A stretch of DNA of 45,795 bases, taken from contig CAJXVJ010000003.1 in assembly GCA_913061105.1 (NCBI GenBank), positions 1 through 45,795 of the forward strand, in the 5' to 3' direction. The DNA comes from an uncultured Alcanivoracaceae bacterium. GTDB lineage: Bacteria > Pseudomonadota > Gammaproteobacteria > Xanthomonadales > Marinicellaceae. The notes beneath the pieces are model-generated. The model was not told the origin of the DNA. It was given only the letters and a program-made list of their open reading frames with translations, and made no database searches. Numbering within the stretch: position 1 is the stretch's first letter; every line of letters begins with the position of its first letter. A program made the translations under genes and the position numbers. Positions 9,329 through 31,173 of the stretch are shown here, piece by piece.

Positions 9329-9407
9329 GTTTAATACCATACTTAAGATTTAATTTACGCCAAGAGATAACTAAACATGCTTATTTCATAATCATTTTAT
9401 GAAATCT

Positions 9408-9436
9408 AAAGCAACAGATTGTATTTCTGTTGCTTT
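9408..9436 (-). terminator. Hairpin terminator after the cupredoxin gene
   Basis: AAAGCAACAG and CTGTTGCTTT form a perfect 10-bp stem around a 9-base loop, 19 bases past the cupredoxin stop on the minus strand. The T-run is poor (CTTTAGATTT), so it may act as an mRNA 3'-end stabiliser as much as a terminator. A second 7-bp stem lies at 9384-9404. Confidence 0.55.
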
Positions 9437-9454
9437 AAATAATTAGCTTTTATC

Positions 9455-10165
9455 TCATTCAAATCCATTGGTAAAAATATTGTCTTCTGCAACAACTCGA
9501 ATTATTCCTGACATTCCATTTCCACCAGGGCTACCATGAGGCTCGCAAAAATACCTGCTATTTCCCACTTCATTAAATGGGATATAAAAATTCCAATTAC
9601 TTAAACTGGCTGAGGATGGTAGATTAAAACCGCTACCCAAACAACCTTCTGAACATAAAAAGCTGTCATCATCTGCCCGAACATTGTGGAATCCTTCGTC
9701 ATTGATAAAATTAACAAAATCTCCTACTTCTATTTCGAGATCATCGGGAGAAAATTCAAAATTACTAGAACGTACTTCATGAACAACTCCTGTAGTTGGG
9801 GCCACAACATTGATTACGCCAGACATGCCAGAACCACCAGAACCACCATGAATTTCACAGAAGTAGTTAAAACTTCCAACAGTGTTAAATGTAATTTCTA
9901 TTACCCATGCACCTGAACTTGGTTGGCCGCCACCATCTAATGGAACAACTTCACAATCTGTTGAGCAGCGAAAAGATCCATTATCAGCTACAACATTGTG
10001 TAAACCACTGGTATTAGTAAAGATGACTGAGTCTCCTGCTTCAATGTTTAATACAGCAGGTGAAAAAGTATTTGATGATACGGTGACGTTATGAACAGCA
10101 GAGATTGAGGCAAAACTGATGCACAGTAGTATTAGTGTGACGGTTATTTTAGTCGAAGTTTTCAT
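9455..10165 (-). CDS. Secreted tandem cupredoxin (plastocyanin-like, two type-1 copper sites)
   Basis: A protein of about 236 residues with a signal peptide, two repeated cupredoxin domains and a short C-terminal tail. Counting from the upstream alternative start at 10177, domain 1 has ligands His60, Cys107, His110 and Met118 (CEIH...GM) and domain 2 has His164, Cys211, His214 and Met222 (CEPH...GM), so both type-1 copper sites look complete. Each domain also has an extra Cys pair (CSTDC, CSEGC), probably a disulfide. The protein ends in NIFTNGFE, a tail that recurs on secreted proteins of some gammaproteobacteria and may be a sorting signal. I chose the ATG at 10165 because GAGAAA precedes it and it leads straight into the signal peptide. 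It is probably a periplasmic or extracellular electron carrier; the partner is unknown. Confidence 0.85.
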   Translation of the reverse strand: MKTSTKITVTLILLCISFASISAVHNVTVSSNTFSPAVLNIEAGDSVIFTNTSGLHNVVADNGSFRCSTDCEVVPLDGGGQPSSGAWVIEITFNTVGSFNYFCEIHGGSGGSGMSGVINVVAPTTGVVHEVRSSNFEFSPDDLEIEVGDFVNFINDEGFHNVRADDDSFLCSEGCLGSGFNLPSSASLSNWNFYIPFNEVGNSRYFCEPHGSPGGNGMSGIIRVVAEDNIFTNGFE

Positions 10166-28503: not shown

Positions 28504-29939
28504 CCAGTGTTCTTCACCAAACCAACACCATTGCGACGGCTATCGCCAATCGCTAACTGTGATGAGCCTTGTGAAACTGCATTTATGCCTCCAAAATAAA
28601 GACTTCTTTGCTGCCATTGGTTAATATTTGAGTAGCGCTTTGCTAAGTTTTGTATGGTGGCTTGGTTTACGCCCTTTTCAATGTCTAATACACCGTTTTC
28701 ATAATGAAAACGCGGTTGATTTATGGCTTTATCTAAGGTTTTATTCTCTGCTATGATTTGCCAAATGACTTGAAACATGGCTGTTTTAATCCGATTAGAA
28801 CCCCCTGTTCCCAATGCAATGAGGTCATCTCCATTTTCGATTATGGTTGGTGACATCATAGATGCCATGCGGCTGTTTTCATCAAAATTAAAAAAACCTT
28901 TGGTATTAATGTCTTCTTCACCCAAAAAGTTATTAAGCATGAAGCCACAGTTTGGCACCATATATCCACAACCCTCGCCATTAGAGACCGTTAGGCTAGC
29001 CACATTGCCATCTTGATCAATGACGCTCATATGAGATGTGCCTTTTGAAGATTGAAAAACGTTTTGATTTTTAAGTTGATCGGCGTATTCCATGGCCATA
29101 ATCAGCTTATCGTTGATATCTCGAACTGGGTTTTTCAATGCATGTTTTAATTGTTCTATAATTAAGTATCCACCAGTAGTTGGTGCGGCATTGGTGATGA
29201 CTTTCCAATTATTTATCTCAGCAATTAGTGGTTCCCTAATGCTGACCTGATATGAATCAAAGTCAATTTTGCTTAATAATCCTGCGGATCGATTCATATC
29301 AGAAACTATGCTGTTTGCAGGATTACCACAATAAAACCAATCATTTGGCAGTTGTGCAAAATTTTCTAGAAAATTTGCTAAATCAGGATTGGCTTTAACA
29401 TCACCTAATGCTAGTAATTCTTCATTGTTTTTTGAAAAAATGGATTTCGCATAATCAGAATGGTTTATTATTGGTGATAAGATTTGGATTACATCTGCAT
29501 GTAAGGCATTCACTTCCATGCCAATTTTGGCTTTTTTAATGGCTGCACTGGCAATTTCAATTAAAGGCAGGCTTCCATAGCTTTCATGAATGGCGAATAT
29601 TCCTGCGGGAATTCCAGGTGTGGCAGCCGAAGCCATGCCAATGTGAAACTCTTGCTGGGTTGTTCCAAAATCCCCTTGAATGGGATAAAAATCCTTATCA
29701 TCCGTATTTTTTTTATGCGGTGTTTGGGCAAAGAAATCAAATATTTTGGCGGTCTTATTTTTTGGGTGAGCCAATAAATACCCGCCTCCACCTGGTGATG
29801 ATAACAGTGGCTCACAGACAAATGACATAAATAGGGCAGCTAGAATGGCATCATAGGCATTACCGCCTTTGTCTAAGATCTCTGCTGCTGCCTGTGTGCT
29901 GTGATAATTGCCTGTGGCAATGGTGTAGGATTTTAGCAT
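28500..29939 (-). CDS. Gamma-glutamyltransferase-family Ntn hydrolase, short and without signal peptide
   Basis: A 479-residue member of the gamma-glutamyltranspeptidase family. The predicted autoprocessing nucleophile is Thr301 in KGTSHMSVID, starting the small subunit. The SSPGGGGYLL block (47-56), GMASAATPGIPAG (101-113), AAPTTGGYLI (251-260) and GTGGSNRI match the family, GTGGSNRI replacing the usual GxPGGxxI. It lacks the N-terminal export signal of classical Ggt and is about 100 residues shorter, so it is probably cytoplasmic and may act on a gamma-glutamyl or acyl-amide substrate other than glutathione. Its start overlaps the end of dtd by 7 bases. Confidence 0.88.
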   Translation of the reverse strand: MLKSYTIATGNYHSTQAAAEILDKGGNAYDAILAALFMSFVCEPLLSSPGGGGYLLAHPKNKTAKIFDFFAQTPHKKNTDDKDFYPIQGDFGTTQQEFHIGMASAATPGIPAGIFAIHESYGSLPLIEIASAAIKKAKIGMEVNALHADVIQILSPIINHSDYAKSIFSKNNEELLALGDVKANPDLANFLENFAQLPNDWFYCGNPANSIVSDMNRSAGLLSKIDFDSYQVSIREPLIAEINNWKVITNAAPTTGGYLIIEQLKHALKNPVRDINDKLIMAMEYADQLKNQNVFQSSKGTSHMSVIDQDGNVASLTVSNGEGCGYMVPNCGFMLNNFLGEEDINTKGFFNFDENSRMASMMSPTIIENGDDLIALGTGGSNRIKTAMFQVIWQIIAENKTLDKAINQPRFHYENGVLDIEKGVNQATIQNLAKRYSNINQWQQRSLYFGGINAVSQGSSQLAIGDSRRNGVGLVKNTG

Positions 29940-30370
29940 TCTAAATTAAAAGTCACGGGTCCATCATTAACCAAGCTGATTTGCATATTGGCCGCAAACA
30001 CGCCAGTTTGTATGTTTAAATTTGTGGTTTTGGCTTGTTGTATCATGTATTCGTATAATTCTGCGCTTAATTTTGGATTGGCAGCACTTGAAAAACTGGG
30101 ACGCAAGCCTTTTTTTGTATTGGCCACTAGAGTAAATTGAGAGACCAAAAGTATTTCACCATTAATGTCTTCAACAGACAGATTCATTTTACCACCATCG
30201 TCTGAAAAGATACGGTAGGAAAGAAGTTTTTTCAACATTCTTTGAGTACTTTCCTTGGTGTCATCTTTCTCTACACCGACAAAGGCTAAAATGCCTTGTT
30301 TTATTTGGCCAACAGCTTTACCTTCCACATCGACACGGGCTTTCTTAACTCTTTGAATAAGTACTTTCAT
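29933..30370 (-). CDS. dtd: D-aminoacyl-tRNA deacylase (D-Tyr-tRNA deacylase)
   Basis: A 145-residue enzyme that removes D-amino acids, and glycine from tRNA-Ala, using the tRNA itself for catalysis. The two family signatures are present: SQFTL (77-81) and the C-terminal NDGPVTF, whose Gly-Pro pair gives chiral selection. MKVLIQRVKKARV is a standard N terminus. Length is normal. It is translationally coupled to the gamma-glutamyltransferase gene. Confidence 0.97.
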   Translation of the reverse strand: MKVLIQRVKKARVDVEGKAVGQIKQGILAFVGVEKDDTKESTQRMLKKLLSYRIFSDDGGKMNLSVEDINGEILLVSQFTLVANTKKGLRPSFSSAANPKLSAELYEYMIQQAKTTNLNIQTGVFAANMQISLVNDGPVTFNLEC

Positions 30371-30483
30371 GTAATCATTATAAATGAGAGCTTTGAAAAA
30401 TTCTCTAATTTTATTTATAAAAAAGTGAGAGATTAGTTGGTTTTAATTCATTAACTATTATGGAGATTTTATTTAATCTATTT

Positions 30484-30797
30484 GATACGGGTGTTTTGTA
30501 GGAAAAACACCTACAAAGGAAAAGTCTTTTACCTATATTTATTTTCTGATAAATACAGATAATGGATACATGGATGCGAGATAAATGATTTATCTCATTA
30601 TTGCTCTACTCACAACTATCATAAGGCTTGTGGTTGTTGGGTAATTAAGGATTGATAGGATTAGCAACAAATGATCGCGTAGGAAGGCAATTATTTGACA
30701 AACGGATTTGTGGCATAAGGATGTGTATTTCGGGGAAAAGGAATGGGTCAGGGAGACCATTTTTAAACCGCTGGGTTAATACCTGGCGGTTTTTTTT
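30484..30797 (+). ncRNA. Candidate CsrB/RsmZ-type regulatory RNA (CsrA/RsmA sponge)
   Basis: This part of the 437-base gap holds no ORF of note but shows the pattern of Csr/Rsm RNAs. On the plus strand GGA occurs at 30501, 30518, 30564, 30572, 30649, 30658, 30682, 30704, 30719, 30734, 30740 and 30752, plus one just upstream at 30462. Several are in hairpin loops: GGTGTTTT-GTAGGA-AAAACACC (30490-30511), ACAAA-CGGA-TTTGT (30698-30711), GGTC-AGGGA-GACC (30746-30758) and CAT-AAGG-ATG (30714-30723). A perfect 8-bp stem is at 30578-30596. The RNA ends in a strong terminator. In known members each A(N)GGA loop binds the translational regulator CsrA/RsmA and titrates it away from mRNAs. The 5' end is inferred from the first hairpin; I see no clear GacA box or good promoter. 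Size (~310 nt) is nearer CsrB than RsmZ. Confidence 0.75.
30765..30797 (+). terminator. Rho-independent terminator of the candidate Csr/Rsm RNA
   Basis: Arms 30765-30776 and 30781-30792 pair over 12 bp (two wobble pairs) around a UAAU loop, then run into five more T. The structure lies on the plus strand just outside the convergent zinc-ribbon gene. Confidence 0.88.
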
Positions 30798-30807
30798 ATT
30801 CCATTAA

Positions 30808-31173
30808 CTATTTTTTGCCAGCTTTATAGTTGCTTTTTGCAACATACATTGAGGCCCTAACTCCCACATACATTGCAAAGCCGATAAAAATCAAATAAAC
30901 ACCCCAATGGTTTAGAAAGTTAGCATTAAATCCATAATCAATGGCTTTGGCATAAGTCCATAACATTGGAACCAATCCAATAATGGCGATGGCCATGGCT
31001 GTAAAAGTCAACATTTTAAAACGGAACATTTTATCTCTGTATTTACGGTACCTAAGTACTTTCAAGCGTTCAAGATCATCACCGCTTTGATTCAAAGAGT
31101 ATTCACAGTGTGGGCACAGCTCTAATTTATCAGAAATTTGATTTTGACAAGATGGACATTTTATTAATGACAT
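30808..31173 (-). CDS. Small zinc-ribbon membrane protein
   Basis: A 121-residue protein. An N-terminal zinc ribbon has two CXXC pairs, CPSC (6-9) and CPHC (20-23), followed by a basic helix (about 35-52) and two transmembrane helices (about 54-74 and 88-107). I do not recognise a named family; many bacteria have such zinc-ribbon two-helix proteins of unknown function. It is a single gene converging on the candidate Csr/Rsm RNA, whose terminator ends 11 bases past this gene's stop. Confidence 0.75.
   Translation of the reverse strand: MSLIKCPSCQNQISDKLELCPHCEYSLNQSGDDLERLKVLRYRKYRDKMFRFKMLTFTAMAIAIIGLVPMLWTYAKAIDYGFNANFLNHWGVYLIFIGFAMYVGVRASMYVAKSNYKAGKK

Follow-up and report, generated by a model that had tools for sequence, protein, structure and literature searches.

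The gap between dtd and a zinc-ribbon gene in the window (the whole stretch of DNA analysed, 45,795 nucleotides, contig C3 of the source genome) very probably contains the gene of a GacA-controlled, CsrA-sequestering small RNA; we put the probability of this reading at about 0.88. The predicted sRNA (30570 to 30797, plus strand) is approximately 228 nt long and carries nine GGA and no TCC triplets. Both neighbours, dtd (D-aminoacyl-tRNA deacylase, 29933 to 30370) and the gene of a small zinc-ribbon membrane protein (30808-31173), are on the minus strand; the divergent dtd lies outside the RNA and is the landmark of the conserved locus. A Csr/Rsm-type sponge RNA, as proposed in the original prediction, is by far the best reading of the locus and is well supported, because GGA-containing loops are conserved with compensatory changes, the RNA is present throughout the genus, a GacA-type box stands at a fixed distance and the genome has a CsrA gene. 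These features, together with the excess and strand bias of GGA and the conservation of the terminator, were observed by sequence analysis and comparison.

The source genome is a 3.59-Mb draft of 371 contigs (94.8% complete). Among named dtd genes, the closest were found in Marinicella gelatinilytica and M. pacifica, which places the organism within or adjoining the Marinicellaceae, order Lysobacterales.

GGA motifs, hairpins and terminator

The thirteen GGA triplets originally claimed for the plus strand between 30462 and 30754 were found again on recounting (starting at 30462, 30501, 30518, 30564, 30572, 30649, 30658, 30682, 30704, 30719, 30734, 30740 and 30752), with no TCC, the equivalent of a minus-strand GGA. 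In the suggested GGA-density scan this 300-nt stretch had the highest skew of the 45.8-kb window on both strands (+13, the runner-up having 8). The first four GGAs (30462-30564) are located upstream of the predicted RNA start and nine remain in the RNA. When dinucleotides were preserved, the excess in the interval first assigned to the RNA (30484-30797) was modest on its own: 12 GGAs were counted, the shuffled sequences contained 8.6 on average (sd 2.0), and 139 of 2000 shuffles reached 12. It is the combination of 13 related RNAs, not the window interval alone, that makes the GGA excess significant. These contain 6-15 GGA and 0-2 TCC each, and compared with dinucleotide shuffles their combined z was 8.6, a value to which the sequences, being related by descent, do not contribute independently. 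Most members also had more GGAs within potential hairpin loops than the shuffles (combined z 7.0). The number of GGAs is maintained while the remaining sequence diverges, and GGA triplets were kept in 4.9 of 10 relatives compared with 2.0 of 10 for other triplets (permutation p 0.007).

In an alignment of 11 sequences (the window and ten genus relatives), where a GGA was counted as kept if it occurred in the same column or at most two columns away, six GGAs were kept in the ten relatives: 30572, 30682, 30704, 30734, 30740 and 30752 (for 30734 the count is 8/10 or 10/10, depending on how gaps are treated). Three of the six are in hairpin loops with compensatory changes. The hairpin at 30674 to 30691 (plus strand, as are all the following elements) has AGGA in its loop, with GGA 30682 kept in 10/10 relatives, and its stem shows compensatory changes with 100% of the cells paired. 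The second, ACAAA-CGGA-TTTGT at 30698 to 30711, presents GGA 30704, which is likewise kept in 10/10. In the third, GGTC-AGGGA-GACC at 30746 to 30758, the stem is changed to GAAT/GTTC in two relatives. GGAs 30734 and 30740 belong to the conserved sequence TCGGGGAAAAGGA (30730 to 30742), recognisable in other genera of the Marinicellaceae, too. The claim that GGAs are displayed in hairpin loops was thus borne out for the CGGA and AGGGA loops, whereas the 'GTAGGA hairpin' at 30497-30515 proved to be a palindrome of the promoter DNA (see below).

RNAalifold applied to the alignment placed hairpins around several of the kept GGAs. Once a spurious long-range helix had been removed, the five remaining helices had 92.6% of cells paired and two-sided changes in 13 of 27 pairs, compared with 6.1 (sd 1.7) in shuffled alignments, none of 500 reaching 13. 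Structures slid along the alignment were 28-56% paired and had 2-6 pairs with two-sided changes, a comparison that is biased toward the consensus because that alignment was also the source of the structure. In most members a GGA occupies the loop of each conserved hairpin except the terminator; the first helix lacks one in the window sequence, where that part has diverged. The predicted terminator, a 12-bp stem followed by a T-run, is real: the element spans 30765 to 30797, with a stem (30765-30792) containing 6 G-C pairs, and T8. Folding, another of the suggested checks, gave a plus-strand structure from 30440 better than 100/100 shuffles (z -4.8); from the predicted start z was -2.9. The window RNA is 24-50 nt longer than the RNAs of the genus relatives.

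Promoter, box and regulatory proteins

The sequence TGTAGG-AAAAACA-CCTACA (30497 to 30515, plus strand) was recognised from the relatives and from the published GacA/UvrY consensus, TGTAAGN6CTTACA (PMC4682653; PMC3171408), as a palindromic box of the GacA/UvrY/LetA type. The original prediction reported no such box because the palindrome had been counted as the first hairpin of the RNA; it is conserved in 11/11 genus genomes. The spacer is 7 nt in the window genome and 6 nt in 10/10 relatives (TGTAGGN6CCTACA), where the box is a perfect or near-perfect palindrome, mostly TGTAGGAAATTTCCTACA. The boxes of genus g3 read TGTAGGAAATTTCTTACA or TGTAGGAATTTTCTTACA and contain one canonical GacA/UvrY half-site; in TGTAGGAAATTTCTTACA this half is identical to the published one (PMC4682653). 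The hexamer CCTATA (30532 to 30537), a possible extra half-site, follows the box at a distance of about two helical turns, and several relatives share the spacing. A -10 hexamer, GATAAT, is found at 30558 to 30563 and is CATAAT or GATAAT throughout the genus relatives; a good -35 element was not detected before the predicted sRNA. The distance from the centre of the box to the end of the -10 hexamer is 57.5 nt in the window, 57.0 nt in 10/10 genus relatives and 58 nt in two g3 genomes whose CATAAT is clear. In more distant genomes, with the -10 picked by eye, it is 80-83 nt, approximately two helical turns more. Because this distance is fixed in the relatives, the palindrome is assigned to the promoter and the RNA is predicted to start near 30570, a position deduced from the -10 and accurate within a few bases. 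The start originally placed at 30484 was therefore wrong, and the end at 30797 stands.

We infer that the gene is transcribed, that its RNA binds CsrA and that GacA activates it. Phosphorylated GacA (UvrY) would bind the box about 63 bp ahead of the start and activate a promoter that has a -10 and is without a good -35. The transcript would run from approximately 30570 to the intrinsic terminator at 30797, and its nine GGAs, several of them in small hairpin loops, would bind several CsrA dimers, thereby releasing the mRNA targets of CsrA.

One CsrA gene was found in the genome (CsrA family, E 4.7e-26; protein of 52 letters). Nine of the 11 genus genomes and nearly all of the family have a GacA orthologue, 46-50% identical to E. 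coli UvrY; in the gacA copy of genome G006 the reading passes through one stop. Searching the draft genome of the window yielded no GacA orthologue, the best match being a 31% paralogue. This gene (C134:384-1019) encodes a different, NarL-type regulator adjoining a histidine kinase, and a similar second match (~32%) occurs in most relatives. In relatives gacA is flanked by a GAPDH-like gene, which was missing from the draft as well, where just a 40% paralogue fragment was found; a gap in the assembly is therefore likelier than loss of gacA. The position of gacA could not be traced through uvrC, the two genes being on separate contigs in relatives.

The only other such box of the genome, TGTAGGN7CCTACA, is upstream of recA (C32:2206-2224), with no GGA-rich RNA beside it; it could be an operator of the SOS type, a target of GacA or a chance occurrence. 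Four further copies are present in G006 (L123, L132, L135 and L136), each ahead of a gene with a secretion-signal-like start, and in three of the four a -10-like element, CATAATGG, is located between box and gene. This suggests that these protein genes are direct targets of the same regulator. In family f12, several genomes of genus g42 contain 4-9 TGTAGGN6CCTACA palindromes, compared with 0-2 in most of the order. The few that were read had no convincing GGA-rich RNA adjoining, and they are possibly a different repeat or operator.

Occurrence in related genomes

With dtd as anchor, the locus was compared in 40 related genomes. Upstream of dtd, 10/10 genus relatives have box, -10, GGA-rich stretch and terminator in the same order, so that the predicted sRNA is beside dtd in all 11 genus genomes. 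The GGA loops and the terminator, whose loss from the syntenic gap had been named as evidence against a sponge, were retained in the relatives with the dtd locus. One genome, G010, has a tandem duplicate of the RNA (L013, minus strand 1058-860) with its own box, TGTATGAATTTTCCTACA, at 57-nt spacing, and with seven GGAs in less than 100 nt ahead of its terminator. The zinc-ribbon protein gave no relatives when searched as a synteny marker, and no match to it was located at the dtd locus of the genus relatives; several of them have, as the neighbour on the far side, an acyltransferase-like gene on the plus strand. No DNA similarity to the RNA region was found in plasmid sequences.

A covariance model of the 3' half of the RNA (R1) recovered 11/11 genus members. 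Its second match in the window (9403-9495, minus strand) consisted of the terminal part of a protein gene together with a hairpin, and was not a second RNA. In genus g3, six weak R1 matches (L219, L220, L221, L226, L227 and L229) were clear orthologues on reading, having the terminator, a TCGGG motif, a box or half-box, mostly a GGA-rich sequence and often a hairpin resembling GGTAC-AGGA-GTACC. The RNA is 13-20 kb away from dtd in the g3 genomes G016, G018, G021 and G023. In genus g4 it is beside dtd in L038, and in L186 it was located through the box, on a different contig. Several other weak R1 matches in the other genera of the family (L216, L217, L218, L222, L223, L224, L228 and L230) were gene ends with terminators. 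Orthologues thus occur in two other Marinicellaceae genera, and in other families belonging to the order there are look-alikes at the dtd locus. Family f7 (L032, L033) has a box and 13-15 GGAs beside dtd, with weak R1 support (22 bits), and family f5 (L035, L039) has a variant of the box and GGA-rich sequence there; homology outside the Marinicellaceae is based on locus and architecture, not on sequence. The upstream regions of 80 named dtd loci from other Gammaproteobacteria contained neither the box nor a convincing RNA.

Alternative readings and known systems

Two observations count against GacA control, the 7-nt spacer, found in this genome only, and the lack of a detected GacA orthologue in this draft. 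They would fit a CsrA sponge that has escaped from GacA in this species, the box having decayed by a 1-bp insertion and gacA having been lost, with transcription directed by another regulator or constitutive. Such uncoupling is unlikely, since both half-sites and the -10 are intact despite the longer spacer, the draft, which is in 371 contigs and 95% complete, lacks the neighbourhood of gacA, and G003 has a perfect box though gacA is undetectable there as well. Somewhat less probable still is that the palindrome belongs to a different regulator of the RNA, e.g. an SOS or stress regulator. The similar 7-nt-spacer palindrome upstream of recA in the same genome and the four extra copies ahead of protein genes in G006 point in this direction, but in 7/10 genus relatives the only copy of the genome is the one upstream of the predicted sRNA, one half of the g3 version is the published GacA/UvrY half-site, and GacA is conserved across the family.

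Many sRNAs are intergenic and have comparable terminators, and the GGA excess of the window over dinucleotide shuffles is modest; the GGAs could then be incidental to the purine-rich sequence of an ordinary base-pairing sRNA. The better retention of GGA than of other triplets, its location in covarying loops and the 6-15 copies maintained per RNA despite divergence elsewhere make this improbable. That the stretch is the 5' leader of a neighbouring gene, or a short ORF belonging to it, is hardly credible: frames of 49-61 aa, the longest present, are not kept in relatives, where length differences break them, which agrees with the original statement that no ORF competes. Moreover, a strong terminator stands ahead of any gene on the plus strand, and the genes flanking the RNA in the window are both encoded on the minus strand. 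As to the wider significance of the predicted sRNA, we tentatively suggest, as a less than even chance, that it is the sponge, driven by GacA, that has been missing from the Csr system of the Lysobacterales/Xanthomonadales. In this view an old RNA of the dtd-acyltransferase locus would have been kept in Marinicellaceae and several other families and lost in Xanthomonas (which has RsmU instead), and the species of the window would be in the course of uncoupling from GacA through the 1-bp change in the box.

Rfam searches at gathering cut-offs and at E 10 returned non-significant weak matches only, chiefly to the terminator. CsrB (RF00018) gave no match in the window and 13.4 bits in the distant relative L032 (cut-off 71), RsmY (RF00195) gave 10.8 bits (cut-off 57, E 6.3), and PrrB_RsmZ (RF00166) had no match in the window even at E 10. 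The expectation that the RNA would be too diverged for detection by similarity was correct, and the predicted sRNA represents, by these comparisons, a new sequence family, uncatalogued in Rfam, of the well-known Csr/Rsm kind. A search of the available literature turned up no paper describing an RNA of this kind in Marinicella. The locus would provide a concrete Csr sponge for a group in which the known families are not detectable by sequence and in which Xanthomonas is reported to be without them. Box position, GGA strand bias and synteny can detect such RNAs where covariance models fail, and the alignment supplied can be the basis for building a new RNA family.

The class features of Csr/Rsm RNAs were seen: multiple GGAs, several in hairpin loops, a GacA-type box and a CsrA gene. 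In Xanthomonas, a member of the same order, RsmU is also an RsmA-binding RNA with GGA motifs; unlike the predicted sRNA, it is released by cleavage from an mRNA 3' UTR, and its authors found no homologue of CsrB/RsmB, CsrC or RsmV-Z in any Xanthomonas (PMC7694677). CsrB and CsrC of E. coli are likewise CsrA sponges, controlled by BarA-UvrY through an 18-nt palindrome, and the Shewanella CsrB genes (CsrB1/CsrB2) have the box TGTAAGN6CTTACA (PMC3171408). E. coli csrB contains 22 GGA and 2 TCC in 369 nt, and its box is centred at -182/-183 (PMC4682653), compared with about -63 in the predicted sRNA. In P. fluorescens SS101, RsmY (118 nt) and RsmZ (133 nt) carry eight GGAs each (PMC4353343). The predicted sRNA differs from RsmY/RsmZ in its length of ~228 nt, its location beside dtd, its half-site TGTAGG instead of TGTAAG and the lack of a sequence or covariance-model match, but, judged by its sequence, it resembles these Pseudomonas RNAs in being a single, free-standing intergenic gene with a GacA-box promoter of its own, repeated GGAs in loops and an intrinsic terminator.
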